In this document: piece by piece, positions 820 to 41,694 of the stretch
Numbering within the stretch: the first letter of the stretch is position 1
How the letters are laid out: each line of letters starts with the position of its first letter
Program-made: the position numbers and the translations under genes
NCBI RefSeq assembly: GCF_030296015.1
Contig: NZ_AP027368.1
Location: forward strand, 2,852,001-2,916,000
DNA length: 64,000 nucleotides
Direction: 5' to 3'
DNA from: Ferrimonas sp. YFM
GTDB lineage: Bacteria; Pseudomonadota; Gammaproteobacteria; Enterobacterales; Shewanellaceae
The notes under the pieces: model-generated
What the model saw: the letters and a program-made list of their open reading frames with translations, nothing else
Databases searched by the model: none
What the model was told of the DNA's origin: nothing

Positions 820-820
820 G

Positions 821-3711: not shown

Positions 3712-3751
3712 TCAGCAGATATTCCATAGCGCGGTACCTCTTTTAACTCAT

Positions 3752-3777: not shown

Positions 3778-3808
3778 AAACCACTACAGTCAAAGGTTAC
3801 TAGGGAAA

Positions 3809-5038: not shown

Positions 5039-5048
5039 ACCAGCCTCC

Positions 5049-5870
5049 TTAGAGCCAGCGTTTCCGCCGCTTGTAGGACTTGAGGTTCTTAAAGCTCTTA
5101 CGCTCTTCGTTGCCCCCGCCCAGGTAGAACTCCTTCACATCCTCGTTGTTCAGCAGTTGCTCCCTGGTACCGTCGAGCACGATCTTGCCCGACTCCATGA
5201 TGTAGCCGTAATGGGCCGCCTTGAGGGCGTAGTTGGCATTCTGTTCCACCAGCAGCATGGTGATCCCCTGCTCCCGGTTGATCTTCTCGATGATGCCGAA
5301 CACCTCTTTCACCAGCAGGGGTGACAGCCCCATGGAGGGCTCATCCAGCAAAATCATTTTGGGGCGGGCCATCAGGGCCCGGCCGATGGCCAGCATCTGC
5401 TGTTCGCCACCGGAGAGGTAACCGGCCAGACCGGTGCGCTCCTTGAGGCGGGGGAAGTACTCGAACACCATCTCGATGTCGGCGGCCACCTCGTTGTCGC
5501 TGCGGGTATAGGCCCCCAGCTTGAGATTCTCAATCACCGTCATGTCTTCGACGATGCGGCGCCCCTCCATCACCTGGAAGATGCCGGCGCGGACAATCTC
5601 CTCCGCATGGGCAGTATCGATACGCTTGCCCATAAAGTGGATGTCCCCCCGGGTCACCTCGCCATCCTCGGTCTTCAGCAGGCCGGAGATCGCCTTAAGG
5701 GTGGTGGACTTACCGGCCCCGTTGGGGCCCAGCAGGGTGACAATCTTGCCCTTGGGCACCTCGATGCTGACGCCGCGAAGCACCTGAATCACTTCGTCGT
5801 ACACCACCTCGATGTTGTTCACCGCCAGCACCGGCTCCTCGGTTTGAATCTGAACTGCAGCTTCTGTCAT
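5049..5870 (-). CDS. livF: Branched-chain amino acid-type ABC importer ATPase LivF
   Basis: A 273-residue ABC ATPase with Walker A GPNGAGKST, signature LSGGEQQ, Walker B MILLDEPSMGLSP and an H-loop region (MLLVEQNA). The sequence pattern is that of LivF, including FQVMEGRRIVEDMTV. It would power uptake together with LivG, LivH and LivM at the inner membrane. The ATG at 5870 is chosen because AGGAG lies just upstream; an open extension to 5960 has no ribosome site and low-complexity residues. It lies between the binding protein and the PaaK-like enzyme. The basic C-terminus (SYKRRKRW) is longer than in E. coli LivF. Confidence 0.9.
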   Translation of the reverse strand: MTEAAVQIQTEEPVLAVNNIEVVYDEVIQVLRGVSIEVPKGKIVTLLGPNGAGKSTTLKAISGLLKTEDGEVTRGDIHFMGKRIDTAHAEEIVRAGIFQVMEGRRIVEDMTVIENLKLGAYTRSDNEVAADIEMVFEYFPRLKERTGLAGYLSGGEQQMLAIGRALMARPKMILLDEPSMGLSPLLVKEVFGIIEKINREQGITMLLVEQNANYALKAAHYGYIMESGKIVLDGTREQLLNNEDVKEFYLGGGNEERKSFKNLKSYKRRKRWL

Positions 5871-5893
5871 GGGGACTCCTTTATTCCTTGACC

Positions 5894-5913
5894 GGGGGCA
5901 CCGGGGTGCCCCC
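5894..5913. other. Intercistronic GC hairpin between livK and livF
   Basis: An 8-bp perfect stem (GGGGGCAC/GTGCCCCC) with a 4-base loop sits in the 67-base gap after the binding-protein gene. There is no U-run, so it more likely protects the upstream mRNA from 3' exonucleases or gives partial attenuation than ends transcription. Confidence 0.55.
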
Positions 5914-5937
5914 CTTTCCTCTATTGCTTGACTCGGA

Positions 5938-7188: not shown

Positions 7189-7259
7189 CCCTTGTTTGCG
7201 GGCGCCACAGGCCCGTTTTCCGTTGTTGGGGAGGCCCGACCGCCCGGCATCCCCGCGCT

Positions 7260-7279
7260 CCCCCCGGCATACCGGGGGG
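7260..7279. other. Intercistronic GC hairpin between livM and livK
   Basis: A perfect 8-bp stem (CCCCCCGG/CCGGGGGG) with loop CATA lies in the 107-base leader of the binding-protein gene, just after livM. It has no U-run. Together with the hairpin after livK it brackets the gene expected to need the highest expression. Confidence 0.55.
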
Positions 7280-7295
7280 AAGGATTGCACTCCCC

Positions 7296-8369
7296 TTAAT
7301 AGGCGAAGGGGTAGAATTTCCAGTAGTTCTTCACCTGCTGCCAGCGGTGGGCCAGTCCCTGAGGTTCAAAAATCAGGAACAGGATGATCACCAGGCCGAT
7401 GGCCATCTCCTTGATGTAGGCCAAGCCGTCCACCACCATGGGGATGTTGCCCCAGTCGGTCATCTTCAGCAGGCCAACGCCCCCTTCCAGGGCTTCGGGC
7501 AACAGCACCATGAAGATGCAGCCCAGCAGAGTGCCCTTTACCGAACCCAGGCCGCCGATGATCACCATGGCCAGGAACTGCACCGACATGAAAATGGTGA
7601 AACCCTCTGCGGACACATAGCCCAGGTAGTGGGCGTACAGGGCACCGCCAATGCCGGCGTAAAAGGAGGAGATGCCGAAGGAGAGCAGGCGGTACTTGTT
7701 CAGCTTGACCCCCATGATCTCCGCAGACAGGTAGTGATCCCGCACCGCCACGAAGGCGCGACCATCACGGCTACGCATCAGGTTGCAGCCCCACAGGTAC
7801 ATGAACACCAGGGCGAACAAGGCGATGTAGAAGAAGGTCTCATCGGTGTCGAACACGAAACCAAACAGGTTCACCGGCTCTGCCATGGATCCGGCGCTGC
7901 CGCCGGAGAACCACTCGGCGCGGCCGAAGAAATCCTCGATGATGAACTGGGCCGCCAGGGTGGCGATGGCCAGATACAGTCCCTTGATTCGCGCCGCCGG
8001 CATGCCGAACAACATGCCCACGCCCATGGTCAGGTAACCCGCCAGGGGAATGCAGAGGAACACCGGAATGCCAAAGCTGGTGTTGAGCCAGGCGGAGGCG
8101 AAGGCGCCGAAGCCGAAGAAGGCACCGTGGCCCAGGGAGATCTGCCCGGTGTAGCCCACCAGGATGTTCAGCCCCAGAGCCGCGATCCCCAGATAGGAGA
8201 TCTGAATGAACAGGGTCAGGTAGTAGGCGTCCAGCACAAAGGGCGCCAGACAAGCCAGGGCGATCCCCGCCACCATCAACCAGTGGATGGTGCGGGTCTC
8301 GAAGATGGTGTTGTCCTGCTTATAGCTGGTGCGAAAATCGCCGCATGGACGCATGGCCGGGCTAGACAT
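7296..8369 (-). CDS. livM: Branched-chain amino acid-type ABC permease LivM
   Basis: The 357-residue inner-membrane permease has about nine hydrophobic segments and the LivM/LivH core signature GYTGQISLGHGAFFGFGAF, followed by SFYAGIGGALYAHYLG and MVIIGGLGSVKGTLLG, which contacts the ATPase. It forms the translocation channel with LivH. A soluble 30-residue N-terminal extension precedes the first segment. It lies 40 bases downstream of livH. The start at 8369 fits the length, though a start a few codons further in is possible. Confidence 0.88.
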   Translation of the reverse strand: MSSPAMRPCGDFRTSYKQDNTIFETRTIHWLMVAGIALACLAPFVLDAYYLTLFIQISYLGIAALGLNILVGYTGQISLGHGAFFGFGAFASAWLNTSFGIPVFLCIPLAGYLTMGVGMLFGMPAARIKGLYLAIATLAAQFIIEDFFGRAEWFSGGSAGSMAEPVNLFGFVFDTDETFFYIALFALVFMYLWGCNLMRSRDGRAFVAVRDHYLSAEIMGVKLNKYRLLSFGISSFYAGIGGALYAHYLGYVSAEGFTIFMSVQFLAMVIIGGLGSVKGTLLGCIFMVLLPEALEGGVGLLKMTDWGNIPMVVDGLAYIKEMAIGLVIILFLIFEPQGLAHRWQQVKNYWKFYPFAY

Positions 8370-23663: not shown

Positions 23664-24236
23664 GGTCCGAAAATTTTTCGCTCAAGTATACTGGCACTGC
23701 CCCAGAGAGTTGTTATAAAAGTGTTTCAGAATTTAAGGTGGCGTGTCTCACCCGGCCTCGGGTCGTTCATCGAACCCATGCAAAAGACGGAATTAATAGC
23801 ATCTATATTTTTCTTGAAGAAAAATTTTATTGAATCCAGTCACGTTATTTATATCCAAATTTAGTTTTTCCTATTATGAATAATATCAACCAAGCTATAT
23901 ATTGAATTTCAGAGGTTAAATTTTCTTCCCCATGAAAGTTAACCCACCTTAAATCGCACCCTCAAACTGGTGAACTTTCCGCCATCGCAATCTCTAAGCC
24001 GTATAAACCCCGGGCTGGCGAGGCAACCTTTCTTTAACACCAGACAGAAACAGATTACATTGCACTATCCGCAAGACACGATTTTCACTATTGGAAAGAT
24101 GGGAGCGCCTCTGCAATACAATGCTTAAAATATAGCTAATGCTCCCCTCTTAATTCCGTTTCAACTATTTTATTCCCTGCCCAGTTTCTCTTTATTCCGC
24201 CTTGCCAAGTTGGCCGGGCATATTAAAGGACCTCTT
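23664..24236. other. AT-rich divergent promoter region upstream of ttrB
   Basis: About 570 bp, strongly AT-rich around 23790-23900. I found no good FNR or CRP box, no gene and no riboswitch-like structure. It should carry the promoters of the RND operon and ttrBA. Confidence 0.5.
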
Positions 24237-24932
24237 ATGTTAGACAGACGTTCATTACTCAAGATGGCGGCAGGGAGCGCGGCTCTGACCCTGATCCCCA
24301 GCACCAGTCTGCTGGCCCAGACCCAGGGTAAGCGCATGGCCATGGTGTTCGACGTTCGCCGTTGTACCGGTTGCCTCTCCTGCAGCGTATCCTGCTCCAT
24401 CGAAAACCAGGTGCCCGAAGGCCGTGCCCGTACCCGGGTGACCCAATCCTCCGTGGAGACTGCCGATGGCGTAGCCACCCTGGCGGTGCCCAACCAGTGT
24501 AACCACTGTGAGAACCCCTCCTGTGTCGAGGTGTGCCCTAAGAACGCCACCTACAAGCGCCCGGAAGATGGCATCGTGGTCATCGACTACGACAAGTGCA
24601 TCCACTGTCAGCGCTGTGTCAAAGCCTGTCCCTACGGCGCCCGTCGCAAAGATCCCAAGTACAAGACCGCGCCTGAGAAATGTAACTTCTGTGTGCACCG
24701 TCTGGAGCAGGGCCTGCTGCCCGCCTGTGTGGAGACCTGTATCGGCGAAGCCCGGGTATTTGGCGATCTGAACGATCCCAACAGCGAAGTGGCCAAGCTG
24801 GTTCGCGACAACAAGGTTTACGGCATGCTGCCCGAGTCCGGCAACCTGCCCAGCATCCTCTACATCGGCCTGCCACAGCCCAGCGATGACAAGAAGATTC
24901 TGAAACTCAACCACCTGGAATGGCAACGATAG
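24237..24932 (+). CDS. ttrB: Tetrathionate reductase-type iron-sulfur subunit TtrB
   Basis: The 231-residue protein starts with a Tat-type leader (DRRSLLKMAAGSAALTLIP). It carries four groups of cysteines for four [4Fe-4S] clusters, in the DmsB/TtrB order: CTGCLSCSVSC, CNHCENPSCVEVCPK, CIHCQRCVKACPYGARR and CNFCVHRLEQGLLPACVETC. It should pass electrons to the molybdenum subunit in the periplasm. ATG 24237 has AAAGGA upstream; an earlier in-frame ATG would weaken the Tat leader. It precedes ttrA directly. A PsrB or ArrB role is possible, but the order B-A and the partner favour TtrB. Confidence 0.82.
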   Translation: MLDRRSLLKMAAGSAALTLIPSTSLLAQTQGKRMAMVFDVRRCTGCLSCSVSCSIENQVPEGRARTRVTQSSVETADGVATLAVPNQCNHCENPSCVEVCPKNATYKRPEDGIVVIDYDKCIHCQRCVKACPYGARRKDPKYKTAPEKCNFCVHRLEQGLLPACVETCIGEARVFGDLNDPNSEVAKLVRDNKVYGMLPESGNLPSILYIGLPQPSDDKKILKLNHLEWQR

Positions 24933-24941
24933 GAGATGACG

Positions 24942-27900
24942 ATGGACAGAAGAAGCTTTATCACCCGCGCCGGCATCGTCACCGCTGCGGCCGCCACCGG
25001 CACCGCCTGCAGCTCCACCCCCAAGGGGGGCGAGCCCGCGCCATTGAACGTGGCCAAGAGCAACACCCGTTTTGGTAACCCCCTGCCGACGGAAGCCCAG
25101 CTGGGCGCCGACGGCAAGCTGCACAAAACCCCAGGCATCCGCACCATGTACACCCGTTGCTTCACCTGCAACAACATGTGTGGCCTGCGGGTGCGCATCG
25201 ACGAAGCCAGCGACAAGGTGCTCAAGGTAGGCGGTAACCCCTACTGCGAGATGAACTCCGGCTCTCCCCTGCCCCTGAGCATGCCGGTCCGTGACAGCTA
25301 TGCCGCCCTGGCCGGCAACACCGGCCTGGAAAACCGCGCCACCACCTGTGGTAAAGGCGCCAGTGGCGTTGGCTGTGTGGACGATCCACGCCGTGTCACC
25401 CAGGTGCTCAAGCGTGTGGGCAAGCGTGGCGAAGGCAAGTGGAAGAGCATCAGCTATGAGCAGGCCCTGACCGAGATCCTCGAAGGGGGCGACCTGTTCG
25501 GTGAAGGCCACGTGGATGGCATCAAGGCGATTCGTCAGCTGGATAAGCCCGCAGTGCCCGGCTATCCCGAGTTCGGCTCCGCCGCCAACCGCCTGCTGGC
25601 CACCTTCGGTGAAGAGGATACCCTGCGCGGCAGCCTCTACGCCCGCTTCATGCGTCAGGCCTACGGCACCGTGAACCTGGTGACCAAGCACGCCTACTGT
25701 GGTGCGCCCACCGGCATCGGCTATGGCATTGGCCTGGCTCCCGGCCTGGAGCCCGGACTGGGTGACATCGACTGGGATAACGTCGAATACGCCATGTTCC
25801 TGGGTACCGCCCCAAGCGCCTCCGGCGCCAGCCTCAACCTGTTGGGTCGCAACCTGGCAGACGCCCGTGTCGAGCGTAACCTCAAGTACACCAGCGTCGA
25901 CCCCCTGCTGCGCACCGAGGTGGCCAACGACACCCGTGCCCAGTGGCTGCCCATCCGCCCCGGCCGCGACGCCGCCTTTATGATGGCGCTGATGCAGGTG
26001 ATGTTCGCCGAGAACTGGTTTAACGCCGAGTTCCTGGCGATTCCCAACGCCGACGCCGCCAAGGCTGCCGGTGAAGTGAACCACAGCAACGCCAGCCACC
26101 TGGTGGTCACCGACGCCAAACACAAGGATCATACCCTGTTCGCCAAGGCCTCCGACTTCGGTGTGGGCGGCGACGAAGCCATGGTGGTTGAAAACGGCAA
26201 GCTGGTTTCCGCCAACCAGGCGAAGAAGGCCGATCTGTTCGTCGACGACCTGTTCACCGACGTCAACGGCAATCAGGTTCAGCTGACCTCCTCCCTGACC
26301 CTGCTCAAGGCCCAGGCCAACCAGGCGCCCCTGGCCTCACTGTCTTCCGACTGCGGTATCCAGCAGTCCCAGATCAAGCAGGCCGCCAAGGACCTGACTC
26401 ATCATGGTCGCAAGGCCACCGTGGTCACCAACTCCGGTGCCAACAGTGGCGATGCCATCATGGTCGGCTGGCTGGTGTCCACCATGAACACCCTGATCGG
26501 CTCCCACGACGCCAAGGGTGGTACCCTGTATGCCAACGGCGCCTACTGGGGCTTCGAAGGCAACTACAACCTGGGTGGTTTCGACGGTGAACTGGACGTC
26601 AGCGCAGACATCAACATCTGCCGCTCCGGTGCCTATGAGGACTCCACCGAGTACAAGCAGAAGGTGGCCAAGGGCGAGAACCCCTACCCCGCCAGCGACA
26701 TGTGGCACAACCTGGTGGCCGGCTACGCCTCCTTCAACGCCGCCGAGGCACTGACCGCCCACACCAACGCCAACCCCTACACCGCCAAGGCCCTGTTCAA
26801 CTGGCGCAGCAATGCCCTGTACAGCGCCGCCTCCATCAGCAACGATGTGGAGAAGGCGCTGGTGGACACCGACAAACTGCCGCTGTTTGTCGCCATCGAC
26901 TGCTACATGAACGAAACCAACCGCTACGCCGACTACTTCATTCCGGATCGCGTGATGTACGAAGAGTACGCCGCCGACCGCATGTGGGGCGCGTTCAAAC
27001 TGGGTGTGGTCGCCGGTGCACCTCTGGTGACCCCGCGTACTCCCAAGAACGCCAAGGGCCAGCATATCTGCATGGAGCAGTTCATGATCGATATGGCCAT
27101 GGCCATGGACTTGCCCGGCTTCGGTAAGGGTGCCATCCCCGCCGCCGACGGCCGCAAGGTGGACCTGCTGACCTTCGAGGACTGGCACTCCCGCTACCTG
27201 GCCAACATCGCCGGCCAGTGCAGCAAGCTGCCTGAGGTATCCGATGAGGACCGCGAGTGGGCGGCCCTGGAGTACTCCATGGCGCCTCTGCGTCCCCGCC
27301 TGACCGGCGAGGAAGCGGCCAAGGTGGAAGCCCTGCTCTCCCGCGGTGGCTACTATGAGGAAGCCGAGCGATACGACGGCGACTTCATCAACGGCGGAGG
27401 CGGCAAGTTCCTGCAGATCTACAACGCCGACATGGCTCAGCTGCGCCACTGCCACTCCGGCGAGCGTTACCCTGGCGTGCCCTCCTACGAAGCCAAACGC
27501 TTCTGGAACGGCGACACCTGGGAGCAGCACTGGCCTGAGAAGGAGTTCCCGCTGCTGTTCTCCAACTACAAGCCGACCCTGCGCTCCAACTACTCCGCCG
27601 CCTTTGATCGTTGCGCCGAGGTAACACCGCAGAACTTCGTCTACATGAACATCGATACCGCCGCCGAGATGGGGCTGACCGATGGTGACAAGGTTCGGGT
27701 GGTCTCCGGTAACGGCACCCCAGCCGAAGGCGTGTTGCAAGCGGACTCCGGCGTGGCCAAAGGCTCCGTGTGTGTGTCCCACTGCTTCGGCCACAAGAAG
27801 GCCTATGGTGCAGACACCCGGGTCATCGACGGCAAGGTCATCGAAGGCATCGCCCGCCGTGGCGGCGGCACTGCGGTGAACCAGATGATCCCCGCCGATC

Positions 27901-27992
27901 CGACCCGTCCCGGCAAGGTCTCCATGCTCAATGATTACTACGCCGGCACCAACTGCCGTCAAGGCATTCCGGTAAGAGTGGAAAAGGCGTAA
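24942..27992 (+). CDS. ttrA: Tetrathionate reductase-type molybdopterin catalytic subunit TtrA
   Basis: A 1016-residue molybdopterin oxidoreductase with a Tat leader (DRRSFITRAGIVTAAAATG). The [4Fe-4S] ligands are C73, C76, C80 and C136 (CFTCNNMC, then TTCGKG). C253 in HAYCGAPTGIG is the likely Mo ligand. The C-terminal domain has the guanine-dinucleotide-binding fold. Length and the FGNPLPTEAQ motif fit TtrA better than ArrA (about 850). The start is ATG 24942: AGGAG at 24931-24935 abuts the earlier ATG 24936 and so can only serve the later one. The reaction would be tetrathionate, or another sulfur or oxyanion compound, to product in the periplasm. TtrC is absent. Confidence 0.82.
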   Translation: MDRRSFITRAGIVTAAAATGTACSSTPKGGEPAPLNVAKSNTRFGNPLPTEAQLGADGKLHKTPGIRTMYTRCFTCNNMCGLRVRIDEASDKVLKVGGNPYCEMNSGSPLPLSMPVRDSYAALAGNTGLENRATTCGKGASGVGCVDDPRRVTQVLKRVGKRGEGKWKSISYEQALTEILEGGDLFGEGHVDGIKAIRQLDKPAVPGYPEFGSAANRLLATFGEEDTLRGSLYARFMRQAYGTVNLVTKHAYCGAPTGIGYGIGLAPGLEPGLGDIDWDNVEYAMFLGTAPSASGASLNLLGRNLADARVERNLKYTSVDPLLRTEVANDTRAQWLPIRPGRDAAFMMALMQVMFAENWFNAEFLAIPNADAAKAAGEVNHSNASHLVVTDAKHKDHTLFAKASDFGVGGDEAMVVENGKLVSANQAKKADLFVDDLFTDVNGNQVQLTSSLTLLKAQANQAPLASLSSDCGIQQSQIKQAAKDLTHHGRKATVVTNSGANSGDAIMVGWLVSTMNTLIGSHDAKGGTLYANGAYWGFEGNYNLGGFDGELDVSADINICRSGAYEDSTEYKQKVAKGENPYPASDMWHNLVAGYASFNAAEALTAHTNANPYTAKALFNWRSNALYSAASISNDVEKALVDTDKLPLFVAIDCYMNETNRYADYFIPDRVMYEEYAADRMWGAFKLGVVAGAPLVTPRTPKNAKGQHICMEQFMIDMAMAMDLPGFGKGAIPAADGRKVDLLTFEDWHSRYLANIAGQCSKLPEVSDEDREWAALEYSMAPLRPRLTGEEAAKVEALLSRGGYYEEAERYDGDFINGGGGKFLQIYNADMAQLRHCHSGERYPGVPSYEAKRFWNGDTWEQHWPEKEFPLLFSNYKPTLRSNYSAAFDRCAEVTPQNFVYMNIDTAAEMGLTDGDKVRVVSGNGTPAEGVLQADSGVAKGSVCVSHCFGHKKAYGADTRVIDGKVIEGIARRGGGTAVNQMIPADPTRPGKVSMLNDYYAGTNCRQGIPVRVEKA

Positions 27993-28048: not shown

Positions 28049-28054
28049 GCCGGC

Positions 28055-28080
28055 AAAAAAAGCCCCGCACAATGCGGGGC
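28055..28080 (-). terminator. Rho-independent terminator of the TonB/ABC/PIG-L operon
   Basis: The stem GCCCCGC/GCGGGGC (28062-28068 with 28074-28080) is flanked on the left by seven A residues, a U-run for the minus strand. It lies 17 bases after the PIG-L stop. Confidence 0.88.
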
Positions 28081-28096
28081 CTGTTTCTCTTGGGAG

Positions 28097-28843
28097 TTAC
28101 ACCAGAAGTTCGGTCATCTCAAACAACCCCTGACGCCGATAGGGCTCTGCCAGGGCAATGCGGCTGTGGCTGACCAGGCCGGTGTGCAGATAGAGCGCCT
28201 TGTCCATGGCCCGCTGTACCTCCCGCCCCTTGGCCTGGTCCGACGCCAGCTGATCAAAGCCGGGATAGAGTGCCTGTCGCTCGGCGGGACTCAGACGCTC
28301 GCCAAAGTGACGGCCGGAGAAGGTCATCTGGGCCGCCAGACAATCCATGGCCTTCTCCTTCTGTGGCCACACCTCGGCCAGAGACAGGCTGCAGTTGGGC
28401 CTGGAGGGAGACATGTAATAGAGCGTCGCCACCGGATGCGGCGCCAGTTCCGGCATCGCCTCCAGGCCAAAGTCGCGCCCGGCCAGGGCGATCGCCTCCA
28501 GGATCAGCAGCATCGCCGGTCGCCGGTCCGGGTCCAGGTCCTCGAAGCTGTGCTCCGGATCTTGAGTAATGATGATGTCCGGCCTGGTTTCCCGGATCAC
28601 CCGGCACAGGGCCAGCTTGTAGTCGCGACGCAGATCCACCCCACCGCGCTCGAAGCCGTTGAAATAGACCTGCTCCACCCCCAACTCCGCGGCGGCCTGA
28701 CGCACCTCGCTCTGCATGGTGTCGCTGGCCAGCATGATGGAGGCAAAGGAGAAGCCGCCCTGACGGGCGTTGATGGCCAGGGCACCACCGCACTCCACCA
28801 TCTCCATGCCGTAGACGCCCAACAACAGAATTCGTTTGCTCAT
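28097..28843 (-). CDS. PIG-L/LmbE-like protein with degenerate metal site
   Basis: The 248-residue protein follows the PIG-L deacetylase fold: first strand RILLLGV, ECGGALAINARQGG, then an Rx3PD..IITQDPEH segment. The defining zinc motif HPDDE at the end of strand 1 is VYGME here (residues 10-14), and the second histidine motif (HPDH) is DPDR (104-107). Both histidines and the catalytic aspartate are therefore missing, so classical N-acetyl-sugar deacetylation is unlikely. It is last in an uptake operon, 10 bases after the TonB receptor. It may bind or modify the imported compound; this is inference. Confidence 0.7.
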   Translation of the reverse strand: MSKRILLLGVYGMEMVECGGALAINARQGGFSFASIMLASDTMQSEVRQAAAELGVEQVYFNGFERGGVDLRRDYKLALCRVIRETRPDIIITQDPEHSFEDLDPDRRPAMLLILEAIALAGRDFGLEAMPELAPHPVATLYYMSPSRPNCSLSLAEVWPQKEKAMDCLAAQMTFSGRHFGERLSPAERQALYPGFDQLASDQAKGREVQRAMDKALYLHTGLVSHSRIALAEPYRRQGLFEMTELLV

Positions 28844-28853
28844 AGTCTCATCC

Positions 28854-30761
28854 TCAGAAGCGATATTGGTAGCTCAGTTGCAGGTTACGCGGCACCCCAA
28901 GGGTCTGCTTGGGGCCGCGCTCAGACTCCGGCACCGACGAACCGGGATTAAACACGCTGGCGGCGTATTCTTCGTCCAGGGCGTTCTCCAGCCGAAGCTG
29001 CAGCTTATGGTGCTCACCCCACTGGTAGCTGCCCCCCAGATCCAGCAGCCAGTAATCCCCCGCCTCGGCGCCATAGTCGGTGAACTCGCCGGTGTAGGAG
29101 AGGTGCAGGTAGAGGCCGATGTGATCCCAGGGGGTGTGCTCGATGCGAGTGCTGCCCAGCCAGCGTGGCACCTCCTCAATCTGCTCGGAGCTGCCCTTCT
29201 CACTGCTGTCGGCGTAGGTGACGTTGGCCTGCCACTGCCACAGGGCACTGGGGGTCCAGCGCATCAGCAATTCGGCCCCCTGGGTCTCCACCTCCTGATC
29301 CAGGTTCTGATAGCGATTGCCCTTGACCCCAATCAGATCCTCCACCCGACGCCAGAACAGGGTGGGCTCCACCAGCCATTGGGGGTCACTCCAGGTCAGG
29401 CCCAGGTTGAGGTTGAGGCTCTGCTCAGGATCCAGTTCCGGATTGCCAATCAGTCCGCCCTCCCGCTCGACCGAATAGAGCTCGTCCGCATTGGGCAGGC
29501 GAAAACCGGTGCCGGCGGACGCACGTACCCGCCACTGGTCGGCCAGCTGATGCTCGCCTCCGGCGCTCCAGTTGAGGCTGTCACCGGCGGAGTCGATGTC
29601 GCTGTACCTGATTCCCAGAGCCAGGGAGGTGTCCGGCAGAGCCGCCAGCCTGGGGCGGTACTGGGCAAACAGGGACTGGACGGTTTCGGTGTCACTGACA
29701 AAATCCATCACCTCGTCTTCGCCCCGGTAGGATTGCAGCTCGCCGCCCACCAGCCAGCTGCTGCCGCCCTCCATCAGCAGCTTGGCGGAGAGTTTCAGGC
29801 CAAAGTCCTCGAACCCCCAATAGCTGTCGTCATCGAGCACGATGCGCTCCCCCGCCTCGTTCTGATCGATGCGGGTGTAGTAGCTGTCCCAGCCGTGGTA
29901 GTAACCCTTGGCCAGAAGCTGCAGTCTGTCCGACGGGGTGTATTGATACTCCAGGGTGTAGATCTGCTCCTTGCGCACATTGGCGCTGTCCACGGTGGCG
30001 TAGGTGCGCAGCCGCTCCAGATCCCCGTAGTTGTACTGGGCCAGCAGAGTCAGCTGACTGGCGTCCCCCATCAACCAGCGCAGTTTGGTGCCCGCGTTGG
30101 CCACCTGGTAGCCGCGTTTCTTGTCGCCGGCGGCGGTCCAGTGATAGTCCTCATCCTTCCACAGCTGAAACCCCTCACTGGCGGTCACCGAGCCGAACAG
30201 GGACAGCTCGAGATCCTCGATGGCGGTGGTGTAGAACACCGAGCCGCTGCCGCTGCCGCTGGGCAGGGTATCCCCGCCGACGGTCACCGAGCCTTCGGTC
30301 TCCCCCTGGTAGTTTCGGGTGACGATGTTGACCACCCCGGCCACCGCTTCGGTACCGAAGATCACCCCCTGGCCGCCCTTGAGCACCTCGATGCGCTCGA
30401 TAACATTGGGGTTGAGGCTGTCCAGGTAGATGCCGCCATAAAGACGGTTGTTGATGCGGTTGCCATCGATGAGCCACAAAATGTCCTGCTTACGCGACCC
30501 CTGCAGCGAGTGGTAACCGCCGTCGTAGCGGCCCCGGGCCGAGGTGGCGAACAGACCAGGCACAAACTGGCTGAGCAGGGTGTTGATGTCCCCCTCAACA
30601 ATGCTCTCGAACTGGGCACGTTCCACCACCACCAGCTCGGCTCCCAACCCCGCCTGATCCCAGGCCAGGTTCTCCTCGAGGGAGCGGTGCTCCACAGTGA
30701 GTATTTCATCCACCTCAATGGCGGCGCCCATGGGGGCCGCCAACAACAGTGCGGTCAGCAT
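28854..30761 (-). CDS. TonB-dependent outer-membrane receptor, BtuB/CirA-like
   Basis: The 635-residue precursor has a very short signal peptide (MLTALLLAAPMGAA), directly followed by a TonB-box-like VDEILTV. The plug domain shows ILWLIDGNRINNRLYGG and IERIEVLKGGQGVIFGTEAVAGVVNIVTR. A 22-strand barrel ends in the terminal aromatic YQYRF. It takes up a large or scarce ligand such as a corrinoid, siderophore or metal complex using TonB energy. ATG 30761 has AGGAGA upstream; the upstream open frame overlaps the ATPase gene. It lies 17 bases after the ATPase. No cobalamin riboswitch is seen, so corrinoid uptake is not established. Confidence 0.85.
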   Translation of the reverse strand: MLTALLLAAPMGAAIEVDEILTVEHRSLEENLAWDQAGLGAELVVVERAQFESIVEGDINTLLSQFVPGLFATSARGRYDGGYHSLQGSRKQDILWLIDGNRINNRLYGGIYLDSLNPNVIERIEVLKGGQGVIFGTEAVAGVVNIVTRNYQGETEGSVTVGGDTLPSGSGSGSVFYTTAIEDLELSLFGSVTASEGFQLWKDEDYHWTAAGDKKRGYQVANAGTKLRWLMGDASQLTLLAQYNYGDLERLRTYATVDSANVRKEQIYTLEYQYTPSDRLQLLAKGYYHGWDSYYTRIDQNEAGERIVLDDDSYWGFEDFGLKLSAKLLMEGGSSWLVGGELQSYRGEDEVMDFVSDTETVQSLFAQYRPRLAALPDTSLALGIRYSDIDSAGDSLNWSAGGEHQLADQWRVRASAGTGFRLPNADELYSVEREGGLIGNPELDPEQSLNLNLGLTWSDPQWLVEPTLFWRRVEDLIGVKGNRYQNLDQEVETQGAELLMRWTPSALWQWQANVTYADSSEKGSSEQIEEVPRWLGSTRIEHTPWDHIGLYLHLSYTGEFTDYGAEAGDYWLLDLGGSYQWGEHHKLQLRLENALDEEYAASVFNPGSSVPESERGPKQTLGVPRNLQLSYQYRF

Positions 30762-30778
30762 CTTCTCTCCTAGTTTTG

Positions 30779-31522
30779 TTATCGGGCCGGGCCCAAAATC
30801 TGCACCCGGCGCTGGCCGTCGGTGCCAATGTGAATGTCGGTGTTCACCCGAAACGCCTGACGCAGCTTGTCCGGGGTCAGAACCTGCTCGGCACTGCCGT
30901 AGCCCAGTACCCGGCCCTCCCCCAGCAGCAGCAGGGCGTCGCACCACTGGGCCGCCAGGTTCATGTCGTGGAAGCTGGCCACCACTGTGGTGCCCCGGGC
31001 ACGGATGCGTTCCAGGATGTTGTACAGGTGATAGATATCCAGATGGTTGGCGGGCTCATCGAGCAGCAGCAGCGGCGCTTGCTGCAACAGAGACTGGGCG
31101 ATCATGGTGCGCTGCAACTGGCCTCCGGAGAGCTGCTCAAGGGGGCGGCGACGCAAGTCGTCAAGCTCGCACTCCAGCAATACCTGCTCAAGAGCATCGG
31201 GACAGGCCCCCCTCAACGGGCTGGCACCCAGGGCCACGGCCTGCTCCACGGTCAAACCGCCGGTGGGGCCATTGTGCTGGACCAGGATGGCCACCCGCTC
31301 GGCGCGGGCCAGGGGACGCATGCTGGTCAGGCAGGCGCCGGCGTAGCTCACCTGCCCCTCTGTCAGAGGCCAGAGCCCGGCGATGGATTTCAGCAGGGTG
31401 GTCTTGCCGCAGCCATTGGCCCCGAGCAGCCCCAGCCACTGGCCGGGCTCCAGGGTGGCCGACAGCGCCTTGACCAGGGTGTCGCCATCACGGGCGACCT
31501 TCAGTTGGTTAAGCTCAAGCAT
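30779..31522 (-). CDS. Iron-complex/cobalamin-type ABC importer ATPase (FecE/BtuD family)
   Basis: A 247-residue ATPase with Walker A GANGCGKTT, signature LSGGQLQR and Walker B LLLLDEPANHLDIYH, the pattern of FepC/FecE/BtuD importers. It powers the adjacent permease at the inner membrane. Its start overlaps the permease gene end by 8 bases, indicating coupled translation. The next gene is the TonB receptor, and such a receptor inside an ABC operon argues for a shared ligand. Confidence 0.9.
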   Translation of the reverse strand: MLELNQLKVARDGDTLVKALSATLEPGQWLGLLGANGCGKTTLLKSIAGLWPLTEGQVSYAGACLTSMRPLARAERVAILVQHNGPTGGLTVEQAVALGASPLRGACPDALEQVLLECELDDLRRRPLEQLSGGQLQRTMIAQSLLQQAPLLLLDEPANHLDIYHLYNILERIRARGTTVVASFHDMNLAAQWCDALLLLGEGRVLGYGSAEQVLTPDKLRQAFRVNTDIHIGTDGQRRVQILGPAR

Positions 31523-32513
31523 GGGCCTGCCTGCGGATCAGCAACAGAATCAAAGGCACCGTCATCACCGCCATGGGCACGGACAAAGGCAGTTCTTCCG
31601 GTGCCAGCAGCACCCGGCACAGGCCATCCACCAACAGGGTAATCAGGGCACCCAGCAGCGCCGCAATGGGCAACAGAATGCGGTGGGGAGCCCCAACCCA
31701 CATCCGCGCCAGATGAGGCACCAACAGCCCCACAAAGCTCACTGCGCCAGCCGCTGCCACCGCCAGTGCGGTCAGCAGCAGAATGGCCAACGCCATCCCA
31801 CGGCGCTCAGTTTGCAGGTTCACCCCGAGGGAGCGGGCCTTGTCCTGCCCCAGCAGCATCAAGTCCAGCACCCCGGCGCGGCGACACAGCCACCACAGCA
31901 AAGGCGGCAACACCAGCGCTAGGGGCAGCAGCCTTTGCCAATCCGCCCCGGCCAGGGAACCCATCAACCAACGCAGGATCTGGCCCAGGGCGCGCTCGTC
32001 CCCAAGCAGCATCATCAGGGTGGTCAGCGATGAACCCAGGGCACTGATGGCCACGCCGCAGAGAATCAGGGGATAGGGCGACAGCGACAGCCTGGGGTGG
32101 CTGGCCACCACCATCACCAAGGCAAAGGCCAGGGCGCCGCCAATGACCGCCAGCAAGGGCACCGGCAGCCACCAGCCCAGGGTCAGTCCGGTCACCGCCG
32201 CCAGGGCGGCGCCATTGGCCACCCCCAGCAGGTAGGGATCCGCCAGGGGATTACGAACCAGGGTCTGGGTCAGTACTCCGGCCACCGACAGGGCCGCCCC
32301 CACCAGAGCCGCCAGCAGGGCCCTGGGCAGGCGCATCTCCAGCAGTACGATGCGGACCAAAGCCGAGTCGGGGTCGCCGGAAAGGGCCTGCCAGATCTGC
32401 TCCAGACTCAGAGGCACCGCCCCGCGGCTCAGGCACCACATCAGCGCCAGGGGCAGCGCCAGCATCAACAGCGGGCCTGGTGCAGCCTTGAATCGAATCA
32501 CTGTCGCCCTCAT
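31515..32513 (-). CDS. Iron-complex/cobalamin-type ABC importer permease (FecCD/BtuC family)
   Basis: A 332-residue permease with about ten membrane segments. FecCD family marks are LRLPRALLAALVGAALSVAG (here EMRLPRALLAALVG), NPLADPYLLGVANGAALAA and SFVGLLVPHLARMWVG with its ATPase-contact region. The ATG at 32513 overlaps the stop of the binding-protein gene by four bases (ATGA); the longer open frame lies inside that gene. It would form a homodimeric channel. Confidence 0.9.
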   Translation of the reverse strand: MRATVIRFKAAPGPLLMLALPLALMWCLSRGAVPLSLEQIWQALSGDPDSALVRIVLLEMRLPRALLAALVGAALSVAGVLTQTLVRNPLADPYLLGVANGAALAAVTGLTLGWWLPVPLLAVIGGALAFALVMVVASHPRLSLSPYPLILCGVAISALGSSLTTLMMLLGDERALGQILRWLMGSLAGADWQRLLPLALVLPPLLWWLCRRAGVLDLMLLGQDKARSLGVNLQTERRGMALAILLLTALAVAAAGAVSFVGLLVPHLARMWVGAPHRILLPIAALLGALITLLVDGLCRVLLAPEELPLSVPMAVMTVPLILLLIRRQAHA

Positions 32514-33427
32514 CCCTGCCACTCCACTATGGTGTGGTGCAGCCGCTCGATGCCATCGAGCAGGCGAACGCCGCCGACCACCTCCGAAAATGCCAAGGTG
32601 GCCAGTTGCTGCTGACGCACCGCCGTCAATCGGGATAACAGGGGGTGAGTGGCCAGGACCTGCCACTTTTTCTCATAGGGAGACCAGTTGGAGTCCACCA
32701 TCAGAATCAGGTCCGGCTGGGCCGCCGCCACCGCTTCCCAGGAGAGGTGCCCCCAGGGGCGACCTATCTCTGCGGCCACATTGATGCCACCGGCCGCTTC
32801 GATGATCAGATTGCCCACACCGCAGCAACCGGCCACATAAGGCAGTTGGTATTCGCGCAGCCACAGCAGCACCCGGGGGCGGCGCCCCTGGCTCTCGGCC
32901 AGTGCCGCCAGCCTGGCCTGCTGGCCTTCTATCCAGGCTTTGGCCTCGCTCTCCCGGCCGGTGAGACGCCCAAGATTGAGCATATCCAGGTAGAGCGCCT
33001 CGATGCTGACCCCCTCGGGGCGACAGGCGGACTCAAACAGGTAGGTAGGGATCCCCCGCCCATGCCAAATCTCCCGCGAGCCTATGCCCATGGCACGAAA
33101 GGCGCTGGCGAAGCCGCCAACCACCAGATCGGTACCGGAGAGCAGCACCTGCTCCGGGCTGGGATACTCACGACTCAGCCGAGGGAGGGCGTCATAGTCG
33201 GCTTTGAGGTCGGGGCGTATCTCATCATCCTGATAGGCAGTGCCTATCATCTGGGGCGCCAGCCCCAGGGTCAGCAGGGCCTCGCTGGCGTGCTGATTCA
33301 TGGCGATGATCCGCTGAGCCGGCATAGCCAGTTCCAAAGTTTCACCGCAGTTTCGCAACCGAACCTCTGCCTGCGCCGTCATAAAGAAGACAGCAAAACC
33401 CACTGATATCGCGTGGCAAAACCTCAT
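32510..33427 (-). CDS. Periplasmic binding protein of a FecB/BtuF-type importer
   Basis: The 305-residue precursor has a Sec signal peptide (FCHAISVGFAVFFMTAQA). The mature part has the TroA-like fold of iron-complex and cobalamin binders: PAQRIIAMNQHASEALLTLG and MIGTAYQDDEI at the N-lobe, LVVGGFASAF, and a C-lobe with VAGCCGVGNLIIEAAGG and PWGHLSWEAVAAAQPDLIL. The paired cysteines in AGCCGVG are notable and may form a disulfide or contact a metal. A TTG 9 bases upstream is an alternative start with GGGTGG before it. It is first in the operon, with an FNR-type box upstream. Confidence 0.82.
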   Translation of the reverse strand: MRFCHAISVGFAVFFMTAQAEVRLRNCGETLELAMPAQRIIAMNQHASEALLTLGLAPQMIGTAYQDDEIRPDLKADYDALPRLSREYPSPEQVLLSGTDLVVGGFASAFRAMGIGSREIWHGRGIPTYLFESACRPEGVSIEALYLDMLNLGRLTGRESEAKAWIEGQQARLAALAESQGRRPRVLLWLREYQLPYVAGCCGVGNLIIEAAGGINVAAEIGRPWGHLSWEAVAAAQPDLILMVDSNWSPYEKKWQVLATHPLLSRLTAVRQQQLATLAFSEVVGGVRLLDGIERLHHTIVEWQG

Positions 33428-33436
33428 ACAATCCAA

Positions 33437-33568
33437 CCCACCCCAGAAAAGTGTGAAGTATTTTATGATCGTAATACTGGCTCCCCATGATCGAAATCAA
33501 AAGTTATGACGATATTTAAAATCGTGTGATTATTTGCTCGCAATCCCAAAAGGCCTGGAATCATTCTG
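33437..33568. promoter_or_regulatory. Divergent control region with stacked inverted repeats
   Basis: Besides the FNR-type box this 132-bp gap holds AGTATT-N10-AATACT (33457-33478), which overlaps the TAAAAT -10 candidate for the minus-strand operon, and ACGAT-N7-ATCGT (33509-33525). No cobalamin or TPP riboswitch consensus is visible. At least two DNA-binding proteins could act here. Confidence 0.45.
33487..33500. promoter_or_regulatory. FNR-type box ATGAT-CGAA-ATCAA
   Basis: It matches TTGAT-N4-ATCAA at 9 of 10 positions. It is centred about 40.5 bases before the start point predicted from TAAAAT (33460-33465 on the minus strand), the spacing of an FNR/EtrA-activated class II promoter for the binding-protein operon. 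The N4 sequence is identical in the box before the NikR-like gene. Confidence 0.6.
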
Positions 33569-34846
33569 GTGAGATCACTGAAAACACTGGTTACTTTATC
33601 GACTGGCGCCGGTGAGGGAGGTTTGCGTAGGATAGAGGGATATTGCCGATATGGAGTTCATGCCTTGCTCAGACTGCTGTTGCCCATTGCCGTCGCCCTG
33701 TTGCTGCTGGCCTGCATTCAGACGCCTCGGGGTCAGAGTTACCAAGCCTCTTCCTCCCTGCCCGGTTTCGAGCAAGCCAGCTTCGAGGCCTATCGGGAGG
33801 AGACCCGGCAGTGGCTGATGGACAACCGCGCCTTTGTCTCCAGGGACACCCTGGCTGAGATAGAGGCCAACACGCCGTTCGAAATGCTCCCTCAGGGGGA
33901 CACCAGACGAGGAATATTGCTGGTGCACGGCCTGAGCGACTCGCCCGCTTACTTCGAGGACATCGCTCAGAGTCTGGCGAACCGGGGCTTTTTGGTGCGC
34001 ACCCTGTTGCTGCCGGGCCACGGAAGTCGTCCGGCGGATCTGCAGCTGGCCAGCCTGGAGAGCTGGAACAAAGCCGTAGCACACCACACCAAACTGCTGA
34101 GCGACCAAGTGGATGAGTTGTGGTTGGGGGGCTTCTCCACCGGCGCCAACCTGGTGACCACTGAAGCCATAGACAATCCCAGGGTCGAGGGCCTGCTGCT
34201 GTTCTCCCCGGGGTTTGAACCCAGGTTTAAAACCACCGCCCTCTCCCCCTATCTGGACTGGCTGGTGACCTGGGCCAACCTGGATCCGGAAACCAACTAC
34301 TACCGCTACGAGTCACTGACCATGCACGGCGCCGCCCTCTACTACCAAAGTTCGGTGCAGGTGCGTGACGCCCTGGCCGGTAAGGGGTTCGACCGTCCTG
34401 CACTGGTCACCATCAGCGCCGCCGACAGCGTGATTGACGCCCAGGGGGTGCTGTCACTGTTTCAGAACCACTTCGACCACCCCGGCAGCCAGTTGGTGTG
34501 GTATGGCGAGCTGGAGGCACCGATGCCCAGAATCACCGCCTTGCCTGGGCGCCTGCCCAAGCAGCGGATCGCCAGCATCGCCCACATGAGTGTTCTGTTT
34601 CGGCCCGACAACCACTACTATGGCCGGCAGGGGCAATATCGCATCTGTGACAATGGTCAAAGCGAACAGCTGGAAGCGGCCTGCCCCCAAAACCCGCAGC
34701 CTTGGTACGGCGCCTGGGGCACCAAGGAGCCGGGACAGATGGTGGCCAGGCTCAGCTGGAACCCCTACTACCCGGAGCTGGAGACGCAACTGGACTCGGT
34801 GATCGCCACAACCAACAGCCAAAACAGAACCGCCAGGCTGAAATAA
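33569..34846 (+). CDS. Alpha/beta hydrolase, probable lipoprotein
   Basis: The 425-codon frame from GTG 33569 contains an alpha/beta hydrolase: oxyanion region LLVHGLSDSPAYF, RTLLLPGHGSRP, nucleophile elbow GGFSTGAN, and a late acid and histidine. A hydrophobic stretch ending in the lipobox LLLAC (C49) indicates a lipoprotein. With so long a leader the true start may be TTG 33665, which gives an ordinary signal peptide (LRLLLPIAVALLLLAC). The catalytic type (esterase, lysophospholipase) is unknown. It is monocistronic, with a shared terminator downstream and a divergent uptake operon upstream. Confidence 0.78.
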   Translation: MRSLKTLVTLSTGAGEGGLRRIEGYCRYGVHALLRLLLPIAVALLLLACIQTPRGQSYQASSSLPGFEQASFEAYREETRQWLMDNRAFVSRDTLAEIEANTPFEMLPQGDTRRGILLVHGLSDSPAYFEDIAQSLANRGFLVRTLLLPGHGSRPADLQLASLESWNKAVAHHTKLLSDQVDELWLGGFSTGANLVTTEAIDNPRVEGLLLFSPGFEPRFKTTALSPYLDWLVTWANLDPETNYYRYESLTMHGAALYYQSSVQVRDALAGKGFDRPALVTISAADSVIDAQGVLSLFQNHFDHPGSQLVWYGELEAPMPRITALPGRLPKQRIASIAHMSVLFRPDNHYYGRQGQYRICDNGQSEQLEAACPQNPQPWYGAWGTKEPGQMVARLSWNPYYPELETQLDSVIATTNSQNRTARLK

Positions 34847-34889: not shown

Positions 34890-37310
34890 TTAGAGACGGT
34901 AAGTCAGACTCAGGCTGAAGTTGCGCTCTTCGCCGGGCATACCGCCGAGGAACATCGCCTTCTCGTAGTAGGTTTCGTCAAACAGGTTGTCCAGGTTCGC
35001 CTGCAGCTTCCAGTCGCCGGCATCATAGGCGATGGCCGCATCCACCTTGGTGTAGGCGGGCACATGGCCGTCGGGGATACCGAATGCGCTGGAGTGGGTG
35101 CTGCGCTCATCCACATAGGCGGCACCCAGGCTCATGCTCAGAGGCTGATTCAGGTTGAACCACAAAGCGTCGTAGGTCACCCAGGCACTGGCGGTCACCT
35201 TTGGCACCCCTTTCTGAGCCACATCATAGTTACGAGCAGGATCCTTCTTATCGCGGGCATCCTGATACATGGCGTTGATGTTCAGTTTCCACTGCTCATT
35301 CAGGTGGGCGTTCATGTCCAGTTCCACCCCCTTGGTCTCCTCCTCGCCATCATACAGGTACTCGGGAACATCGGCAGTGGGATCCTCACGAAGGATGGGG
35401 TTGCCGTATCTCAAATTGGTTCGAGAGCTTTCGAACACCACCAGGGACGCCAGCAGTTGATCGTCGAACCCTTTATAGCGGATGCCGAAGTCGTTGCTGA
35501 TGGACTCTGAATCCTTATGATCTTTACCATCACCAGCAATGCTGCCCAGGATACTGTAAGCGGTGCGTCCCTTGGAGTGGTTGATGAACAGCGACAGGTT
35601 GTCGCTCGGCATATAGGTCACACCCAGGTTGTAGGTGACACCGTTGTCCTTGGTGTCCTGCGCAGGAGTAGCTGCCGCACGGCTGGCACTGTAACGCGGG
35701 TCCACACCGAAATGCTCATAGCTCTGCTCAATCTCGTTGAAGGCCACGCCGATGCGGGTAGTCAGGCCCCAGTCCAGGTAAGCCACATGCTGAATGCCCA
35801 CGCCCCAGGCACTGACGGTCTTGTTGTAGTTATTGGTCATCAGGGGGTCGTAGTCTTCGAAACTGCCATCGCCCCAGTTGGGGTTACGCAAATCGTAGAT
35901 GTAGGGCAGCTTGCCCTGATAGGTGACCTCCCCATCGGAGTTTTTGATCACCTTGTCGGCGTCGTAGATGGAGTACTGCTTGAAGCGAATATCCCGGTCT
36001 TCGTAGTTGGCGTTGACCAGCAGCTCGTTGTCGATGCCGCCCAGGCTGAAGTCATAACGCAGATCGGCGAAATACTGCCAGGAGGACTCATCCGCCTCCA
36101 CCTTGCGATACTCCTGACGGCGGGCCGCATAGGGGTAGAGCACACCGTCTTCCACCAGAGGCGCGCGGGGCTCGGCATTTATCTTGCCACTTCGATTCCA
36201 GTAGACGTAGTTGTAGGCACCGGTCTGGCGGGCAAAGCCACTGTCGTAGTTGCGATACTGCAGCTGCTGGTTAAGGAACAACTCAGGGGTGAAGTGGATG
36301 TTGTGGGTCAGCTTAAATCTGAGCTCCTCACCCTCATTGTCCCTGGCCATGGGGGAGATGAGATTGGAATCCCCCAGATCGACAGGTTCCAGGCCATCAC
36401 CTGAAGCCAGGGAATCCGCCAGTTGCTGACGCTGTTCGTCGGTCAGTTGCAACCCTGCGCCGTTGGGATCGTTGATGAGATCTTCCCAGGTCACCTCGTC
36501 CGCCAGCTTGCCGCCGGTGGACTCGGCGTTGTAGATGCGGATCGGGTGGCCGATGGAATCCACCGCGATGGCATCCTTGATGTAGGCCACGGAGAACAGC
36601 AGGTCCTGATCGTCGCTCAGCAAGCCTTTGAGTGAGGCATACACTTCATCGCGATCGGTGCCCACACCACGGTAGCCGTCGCTGCGTGCGCTCTTAGCCA
36701 CCAGGCGATAGGCGGTGTTGTCGCTCAAGGCGGCAGTGCTGTCCAGGGCCAGGGAATAGGTGTCCCACTGGCCGACTTCGCCGGTGAATTCGTGGCTGGA
36801 TTCGAACTGAGGCTTTTTCTCAATCAGGTTGATCACACCGCCGGCGCTGCCCATACCATAGAGGCCAGTGGCAGGCCCCTTGAGCACCTCGATGGATTCC
36901 ACGTTGGTCATGGAACGGGTGGGATTGAAGGTATTGCCCAGACCGGCACCGCCGTACATACCATCGTAGGTGTAGTTGGCCCCCAGACCACGGATCACCA
37001 GATTGTCACCGATGCCGTAGTTATTGCCCGCCTGGGTCAGGCCGCTGATGTTGCGCACCAGGTCCTGCAGGTTGTCGGCTCCCTGTGCCTGAATCAGATC
37101 CTTATCGATCACCACCACCGCCGCCGGGGTTTCCATCAGGGACATATCGGACTTGGTGGCCAGGCCGGAGTTCATCACCACCTGGTTCTGTCGACCGTAG
37201 ACGGTAATTCGCTCTGGCAGGGCATCCGCATTCTCTTCGGCGGACAAGGCCACCTGGGGCATCATGGCCGCGGTGCACGCCAGGGCCAACAGGGAGTAAC
37301 GAAACTGCAT
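34890..37310 (-). CDS. TonB-dependent siderophore receptor
   Basis: The 806-residue precursor has a Sec signal peptide (YSLLALACTAAMMPQVALSA). The plug has ETPAAVVVIDKDLIQAQGAD and NVESIEVLKGPATGLYGMGSAGGVINLIEK, typical of FhuA/FpvA-type siderophore receptors. The barrel ends with FSLSLTYRL. It should bring in a ferric siderophore using TonB energy. ATG 37310 is preferred over the upstream TTG 37328, and AGAGG precedes it. A Fur box lies 32 bases upstream. No siderophore synthesis or ferric reductase genes adjoin, so the ligand may be a xenosiderophore. Confidence 0.9.
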   Translation of the reverse strand: MQFRYSLLALACTAAMMPQVALSAEENADALPERITVYGRQNQVVMNSGLATKSDMSLMETPAAVVVIDKDLIQAQGADNLQDLVRNISGLTQAGNNYGIGDNLVIRGLGANYTYDGMYGGAGLGNTFNPTRSMTNVESIEVLKGPATGLYGMGSAGGVINLIEKKPQFESSHEFTGEVGQWDTYSLALDSTAALSDNTAYRLVAKSARSDGYRGVGTDRDEVYASLKGLLSDDQDLLFSVAYIKDAIAVDSIGHPIRIYNAESTGGKLADEVTWEDLINDPNGAGLQLTDEQRQQLADSLASGDGLEPVDLGDSNLISPMARDNEGEELRFKLTHNIHFTPELFLNQQLQYRNYDSGFARQTGAYNYVYWNRSGKINAEPRAPLVEDGVLYPYAARRQEYRKVEADESSWQYFADLRYDFSLGGIDNELLVNANYEDRDIRFKQYSIYDADKVIKNSDGEVTYQGKLPYIYDLRNPNWGDGSFEDYDPLMTNNYNKTVSAWGVGIQHVAYLDWGLTTRIGVAFNEIEQSYEHFGVDPRYSASRAAATPAQDTKDNGVTYNLGVTYMPSDNLSLFINHSKGRTAYSILGSIAGDGKDHKDSESISNDFGIRYKGFDDQLLASLVVFESSRTNLRYGNPILREDPTADVPEYLYDGEEETKGVELDMNAHLNEQWKLNINAMYQDARDKKDPARNYDVAQKGVPKVTASAWVTYDALWFNLNQPLSMSLGAAYVDERSTHSSAFGIPDGHVPAYTKVDAAIAYDAGDWKLQANLDNLFDETYYEKAMFLGGMPGEERNFSLSLTYRL

Positions 37311-37341
37311 CTTTGTAAACCTCTGCAAATAATTCGAGGCG

Positions 37342-41271: not shown

Positions 41272-41694
41272 ATGGGAACTGAACGTATTACCGTATCACT
41301 GGACAGCGAGTTGCTGGGCGAGCTGGATCAGCTGGCCGAGGACGGAGGCTATCGCAATCGCAGTGAGCTGTTCCGGGATATGATCAGAGAGAAGCGTAAA
41401 GACAAACTGCTGGACACCGATCCCTTCACTCCCTGCATCGCCACCCTGAGCTATGTGTTTGACACCCGCAAACGTACACTGGCCACCCGCCTGATGGAAA
41501 ACCTGCATCAATACAGTCATATCGTCCGCTCCACCATGTTGGTCTGCCTGGATGAACACTTCCGCATGGAGTCCATCGCCCTGGAGGGCAACGCTCAAAG
41601 CCTGCAGGAGTTTGCCAATATTCAGCTCAGTGAAAGCGGCGTGCTCAATGGCTGTTTACATCTGGTTCCCCTGGTCGCCGACGAAACCATCTGA
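41272..41694 (+). CDS. NikR-like ribbon-helix-helix regulator with altered nickel site
   Basis: The 140-residue protein follows E. coli NikR end to end: RHH DNA-binding domain (ERITVSLDSELLGELDQLA, NRSELFRDMIR), then an ACT-like ligand domain (LSYVFDTRKRTLATRLMENLHQY). By alignment the high-affinity nickel ligands H87, H89 and C95 become L90, C92 and R98; only the H76 equivalent (H79) remains. Nickel-dependent repression is thus unlikely; it may sense another metal or act without metal. No nik transporter is adjacent. It has its own FNR-type promoter. The start has GGGGAG upstream. Confidence 0.82.
   Translation: MGTERITVSLDSELLGELDQLAEDGGYRNRSELFRDMIREKRKDKLLDTDPFTPCIATLSYVFDTRKRTLATRLMENLHQYSHIVRSTMLVCLDEHFRMESIALEGNAQSLQEFANIQLSESGVLNGCLHLVPLVADETI

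Follow-up and report, generated by a model that had tools for sequence, protein, structure and literature searches.

We analyzed a 64,000-nucleotide stretch of DNA from Ferrimonas sp. YFM (hereafter the window) and found an operon of five genes, probably a nickel-uptake operon, that ends in a conserved protein of PIG-L fold with replaced zinc-site motifs. The same PIG-L variant accompanies two unrelated types of importer. We propose that the operon codes for a NikR-controlled, TonB-energized importer of a nickel chelate and that its last protein handles the chelate in the cytoplasm, a reading to which we assign a probability of about 0.45. A fuller version is more tentative: the zinc site would have been traded for a new active site, making the protein a cytoplasmic enzyme that opens nickelophores and so releases nickel, a constant partner of two unrelated importer types in at least four phyla, which in Ferrimonas stands under a NikR that senses nickel or its chelate through different ligands.

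The five genes form a FecCD-type TonB/ABC import operon

The features of the window that bear on the proposal are:

32510 to 33427, minus strand: periplasmic binding protein (Peripla_BP_2, Pfam E 1.6e-19)
31515 to 32513, minus strand: FecCD-type permease (PF01032, E 1.5e-83; start read from the open reading frames)
30779 to 31522, minus strand: ABC ATPase (PF00005, E 1.1e-29)
28854 to 30761, minus strand: TonB-dependent outer-membrane receptor (PF00593, E 4.9e-41; PF07715, E 9e-16; start inferred from the sequence)
28097 to 28843, minus strand: PIG-L-fold protein with rebuilt active site (PF02585, 30.5 bits; predicted fold; motif replacements)
28060 to 28082, minus strand: terminator-like hairpin with T-run at the 3' end of the operon, read from the sequence
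33451 to 33477, no strand assigned: NikR-type operator GTGTGA-N15-TAATAC, 24 bp 5' of the first ATG
41272 to 41694, plus strand: NikR-family regulator with altered nickel ligands (PF08753 over cut-off; NF002815, 112.2 bits)

Five minus-strand open reading frames run from 33427 to 28097, with Pfam matches to Peripla_BP_2, FecCD, ABC_tran, Plug plus TonB barrel, and PIG-L. They are joined, in order, by a 4-nt ATGA overlap, an 8-nt overlap, about 17 nt and 10 nt. Reading frames, spacing and matches bear out the claim of an earlier note on this DNA that the genes form one unit, and the terminator said to bound it was found as a hairpin with a T-run at 28082-28060; terminator-like sites for the minus strand are only mildly enriched (6 found, shuffled mean 3.5). 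With receptor, binding protein, FecCD permease and ATPase in a single operon, we class the system as a FecCD-type TonB/ABC importer. The binding protein does carry the pair of adjacent cysteines described previously, and Cys30, Cys138 and the Cys204-Cys205 pair are all invariant in the six Ferrimonas proteins aligned (6/6).

Two known cargo classes were rejected by model scores. For a cobalamin importer (BtuB/BtuFCD), TIGR01779 reached 122.1 against 599.7, the BtuCD models stayed under cut-off and, as previously stated, no riboswitch was seen (no Rfam match at 23000-45000); nor was there a Fur box within 3 mismatches. The models for an F420-0 importer were likewise all under cut-off (TIGR03868 182.0/392.4, TIGR03869 186.3/437.35, TIGR03873 183.2/372.4).

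A second TonB receptor, of siderophore type and under the TIGR01783 cut-off, lies at 34890-37328. In loci L009 and L012 it stands just 3' of the PIG-L gene, and L038 and L039, in which we found none of the operon genes, have kept it. Convergent to the operon, at 24210-27992, are tetrathionate-reductase-like TtrA/TtrB genes. At 738 bits TtrA falls far short of its 1750 cut-off, and its substrate may therefore differ.

The PIG-L protein keeps its fold and has its zinc site replaced

The PIG-L protein had been described as having VYGME for HPDDE and DPDR for HPDH, with loss of the zinc histidines and the catalytic aspartate. We confirmed this with a profile alignment against PIG-L proteins of solved structure: Y11-G12-M13-E14 falls on HPDD and D104-P-D-R107 on HPDH, so that both zinc histidines and the catalytic aspartate are replaced and the zinc aspartate has become a glutamate. 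The first motif reads YGME in the window and in all full-length rows of our main alignment and YGLE in Meiothermus; at the second, where the second zinc histidine would stand, the variant has DPDR or DPGR. We searched all 248 residues of the window protein for an HPDD at another place, which the earlier note had named as a result that would overturn its view, and found none. Because both motifs are absent, a canonical deacetylase is ruled out.

Several comparisons agree that the fold is kept, as had been claimed. The window protein scores slightly above the PF02585 cut-off (30.5 bits, cut-off 28.2), Cytobacillus reaches 29.5 and the Clostridial L023 only 20.8. The predicted model (pLDDT 80.7, built on an alignment of 14 sequences) matched diacetylchitobiose deacetylase (8bgn) with Z 21.1 and rmsd 2.7 over 212 residues (Foldseek E 5.1e-11). 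Our family profile A3 had GalB as its best solved match (E 1.1e-36), a score raised by the two canonical relatives, L008 and L048, that the profile contains; the window protein as lone query gave 2.2e-08 to diacetylchitobiose deacetylase. Judged from the predicted model and these profiles, the match to PIG-L is a real fold and not chance.

In the model, most of the conserved residues come after predicted strands 4-10, 90-94 and 140-144, at the edge that we take to be the place of the active site in the PIG-L family. The pocket therefore seems, on this model, to have been re-lined rather than lost. H226 and E233 fall within a low-confidence stretch.

The altered motif is conserved in a rare clade

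Residues 9-20 (GVYGMEMVECGG) are invariant in 17/17 rows of the main alignment, which makes the altered motif the longest invariant stretch of the family; D95, H98, D102, D104, R107, R108, P149, N150 and C151 are invariant as well. Cytobacillus differs at M15 (V) and C151 (T). The Meiothermus protein, which is more diverged, keeps Y11, G12, E14, V16, E17, H98, D102, D104, R107 and R108 and has L13, I15 and V18 in place of M13, M15 and C18. One copy, L022 7983-8672, is missing about 20 residues around the YYM strand, through either an assembly fault or a real deletion. The PIG-L protein is also the best conserved of the five operon proteins in all six Ferrimonas relatives (6/6), for example at 81% in L009, where the other four stand at 58, 72, 74 and 77%. 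An invariant motif in the best conserved protein of the operon argues that the change is not decay. A decaying deacetylase retained by hitch-hiking would account for the lost zinc ligands, but is contradicted by both kinds of conservation and is hardly credible.

By sequence, the variant is a rare clade of Ferrimonas, Clostridia, a spirochete, Cytobacillus and Meiothermus. From 84,980 species genomes, a pattern scan recovered 15 loci, and a plasmid collection gave five Cytobacillus records and one Meiothermus record with the variant, as well as a single distant archaeal match whose motif looks canonical. Sampled searches of 392, 274, 247 and 394 genomes returned, beyond each center genome, a single weak match (G955, 4.1e-13) in the spirochete phylum. 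The binding protein was found in 1/369 genomes of the class, the window's own, and no match occurred among viral contigs. Since most members came from one pattern scan and the plasmid collection, this distribution is a lower bound. In a tree whose long branches call for caution over its placements, Ferrimonas adjoins the spirochete (95/93) inside a clade separate from two canonical rows (97/98).

The PIG-L variant is linked to two unrelated importer types

We opened 20 loci and found the PIG-L variant beside an importer in every one (20/20). The linkage proposed in the earlier note thus holds, with no unlinked copy among the loci opened, but the type of transporter it accompanies varies: FecCD/TonB in Ferrimonas, Nik/Opp elsewhere. 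The window and six other Ferrimonas loci share the same order of binding protein, FecCD, ATPase, TonB and PIG-L (7/7). This five-gene order, for which the earlier note had advised a search of other genomes, is therefore a Ferrimonas trait, because elsewhere the partner is a Nik/Opp-type ABC system. All nine Clostridial loci have PIG-L beside a binding protein, two permeases and two ATPases of this type; in one of them, L016, an opposite-strand open reading frame lies between PIG-L and the importer genes. The spirochete gene is split across two contigs, with a Nik/Opp operon coming after its second half, and both Cytobacillus plasmids opened have PIG-L beside a Nik/Opp-type importer. Meiothermus has just a binding protein and permeases adjacent to PIG-L. 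In the simplest history, PIG-L would have been tied to Nik/Opp-type importers and its partner swapped in Ferrimonas.

Curated models for NikA, NikB and NikD were all under cut-off in the partner proteins scanned. Among 16 other loci scanned for riboswitch control there were two Rfam matches, to Clostridiales-1 RNA and the glycine riboswitch, both away from the ABC genes. Two kinds of neighbor are recorded here as observations. In the Cytobacillus PIG-L operon, a 209-residue protein with a nitrite/sulfite reductase 4Fe-4S domain follows the ABC genes (L045 18467-19096, L046 16459-17088). In L018, the region 5' of PIG-L (175-7687) has genes for a chelatase resembling CbiK, a NEAT-like protein, an importer of FecB/FecCD type and a P-type ATPase that is His-rich at its start.

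A NikR-family regulator faces the operon in six other Ferrimonas genomes

The earlier note had found no obvious ligand, having overlooked a NikR gene and a NikR-type operator in the window; in Ferrimonas these two elements point to nickel. The protein scores over cut-off for PF08753 and NF002815 (112.2 against 83) and under it for TIGR02793 (94.6 against 175.45). Its gene, at 41272-41694, is about 8 kb from the operon, with an 8-kb block between them. In the six other PIG-L-bearing Ferrimonas genomes NikR is divergent and directly faces the operon (6/6). Among 14 Ferrimonas genomes, NikR occurs in 10 and PIG-L in 7, and all 7 are among the 10. One record with Ferrimonas-like genes, labeled Marinobacter nauticus DP3N21-5 (L011), has the same coordinates as G007, a genome listed under Ferrimonas, and is probably a mislabeled Ferrimonas.

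The regulator also occurs apart from the operon. Genome G009 keeps NikR but lacks the operon cleanly, its conserved flanks being joined by 18 bases where the window has 28050-33587; G012 likewise keeps NikR, in a stretch without any operon gene. In G001, which has no PIG-L gene, the same NikR faces a Nik-type ABC operon. The binding protein of that operon has solved nickel-binding proteins as its nearest matches (2.8e-39), yet scores below the curated Nik cut-offs.

The Ferrimonas NikR has L/V/I, C and R in place of H87, H89 and C95 in all ten copies (10/10), and these are the same columns when aligned against solved NikR structures; a control NikR from G044 keeps all three. H87, H89 and C95 are the letters of E. 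coli NikR, which we take to be its high-affinity nickel ligands. With these missing, its sensing of nickel may be unusual: other residues may bind the metal, or the signal may be something else. Its copies (window, L009-L013, L024-L034) have other cysteines in common, which lie before the ALSYV-like strand, at position 89 and within GCLH and could perhaps be a different sensor site.

The enterobacterial NikR signal given in PMC545781 is GTATGAT-[N13/14]-ATCATAC. Searched at spacing 15, the published half-sites were found with 1 to 3 mismatches in eight upstream regions, several of which are near-copies and so not independent tests. Seven of the eight have a site near GTATGA-N15/16-TCATAC that was reached by no more than 2/300 shuffles each; the exception is L013 (32/300), which is no better than chance. 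The window operator has 2 mismatches to the enterobacterial half-sites and was reached by 2/300 shuffles of its upstream region. The window has two more sites with 2 mismatches, and across its whole length the published consensus, with up to 3 mismatches allowed, shows no enrichment (14 found, 12.08 expected). The weight that we give this candidate operator comes from its position, spacing and conservation. At 33451-33477 it is the sole zero-mismatch match in 64 kb to a looser degenerate pattern, one partly drawn from these same sites. A strict pattern matched 10/51 loci, missing L009, L012 and L013 and including one match inside a coding region (L039). We saw no good operator 5' of the window's own NikR gene and no good second operator for the second TonB receptor (37328).

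Taken together, NikR control and nickel as the cargo are well supported in Ferrimonas, short of proof. Outside Ferrimonas, no nickel marker was found in the loci examined. Nickel enzymes were tried as a marker and did not discriminate: NiFe hydrogenase is present in 14/14 Ferrimonas genomes, with or without the operon, and in 1/10 other hosts, urease in 1/10, and Lar_N over cut-off in 7/10, a count given without a background rate.

A model for the PIG-L protein and its alternatives

In our model, NikR would switch the Ferrimonas operon, and the receptor, binding protein, FecCD permease and ATPase would carry a nickel chelate into the cytoplasm. There, the PIG-L-fold protein, its zinc site exchanged for Y11, E14, E17, D95, H98, D102, D104, R107, R108 and N150, would most likely bind the chelate, once imported, in what was the deacetylase cleft and open or cleave it, so that nickel is released. 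We infer both that the protein acts on the imported chelate and how. The earlier note had suggested that it binds, carries or remodels the imported compound; the importer linkage behind that suggestion stands, and the role itself is our inference. That PIG-L stays constant beside two unrelated importer types is consistent with action on the imported compound and not on one transporter. Given NikR control in Ferrimonas, the likeliest compound is a nickel chelate and the likeliest act its opening or cleavage. The G001 locus, which has a NikR-linked Nik-type importer but no PIG-L, points to a role for the protein with a particular chelate and not in nickel import as such.

The cargo could instead be cobalt, copper, another metal chelate or a peptide-like compound, with NikR re-tasked, which we consider rather doubtful. 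The altered NikR ligands fit such a cargo, as do the Clostridial L016 binding protein, closest to an oligopeptide-binding protein, the copper genes CsoR, CopZ and CopA that adjoin the PIG-L operon in Cytobacillus, and the below-cut-off similarity of the binding protein and ATPase to putative F420-0 importers. The NikR-type operator, the Nik-like importer swapped in under the same regulator in G001, and the missing cobalamin riboswitch speak against such a cargo.

The main rival, which we judge unlikely, makes the PIG-L protein a cytoplasmic nickel-binding chaperone or buffer, its cleft a new metal site that passes metal to maturation proteins with no chelator chemistry. Soft and carboxylate residues (M13, E14, M15, E17, C18, M43, H98, C151) are invariant in the main alignment, and all 14 Ferrimonas genomes encode a NiFe hydrogenase. 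However, the substitutions in Meiothermus (L13, I15, V18) and Cytobacillus (V15, T151) indicate that parts of the clade do without the Met/Cys set, an arginine occupies the place of the second zinc histidine, and no NiFe hydrogenase was seen in nine of the ten hosts outside Ferrimonas.

A non-catalytic regulator that senses imported ligand and acts, for example, on the ATPase would explain importer linkage without a fixed transporter type. The partner ATPases and permeases are unrelated, however, which makes a conserved contact surface unlikely and this role quite improbable.

Relation to known systems

The nickel-release model draws together parts of known kinds. PIG-L/LmbE deacetylases (diacetylchitobiose deacetylase, BshB, MshB) and GalB have the same fold from end to end (Z about 18 to 21); the variant differs from them in YGME, DPDR/DPGR, the lack of zinc ligands and the importer linkage. 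NikR-regulated nickel uptake in Helicobacter (FrpB4 or NikH, NiuBDE) likewise combines a TonB receptor with a FecCD-type ABC importer, but the Ferrimonas NikR lacks the canonical ligands, and the excerpts on the Helicobacter system mention no PIG-L member. Replacement of a FecDE-type nickel importer by a NikZ/Opp-type one has been reported in Helicobacter (PMC5140060), and TonB-dependent nickel receptors are already known (PMC11247825). NikABCDE and CntABCDF (staphylopine) are of the ABC type seen in the partners outside Ferrimonas and in the G001 NikR neighbor, although the curated cut-offs are not reached here and, except in G001, a PIG-L gene is added.

Siderophore-importer operons may include a cytoplasmic release enzyme, such as Fes, IroD or FhuF. 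The logic proposed here would be analogous, chelate import followed by dedicated cytoplasmic release, with a different fold and metal and a putative release role. Our literature search returned no PIG-L protein tied to nickel import, the results for PIG-L terms being unrelated as listed, and the combination and the rebuilt PIG-L clade are undescribed in the literature searched.

To our knowledge, metal release from imported chelates is well understood for iron and hardly for nickel. A conserved protein that follows two unrelated importer types would be a handle on nickel release and on the chelators, and a NikR with replaced ligands raises the question of which signal it senses. The variant is also a case of a widespread zinc-deacetylase fold remade for another task and strongly conserved, so the annotation "PIG-L family deacetylase", as carried in Cytobacillus, is probably wrong.
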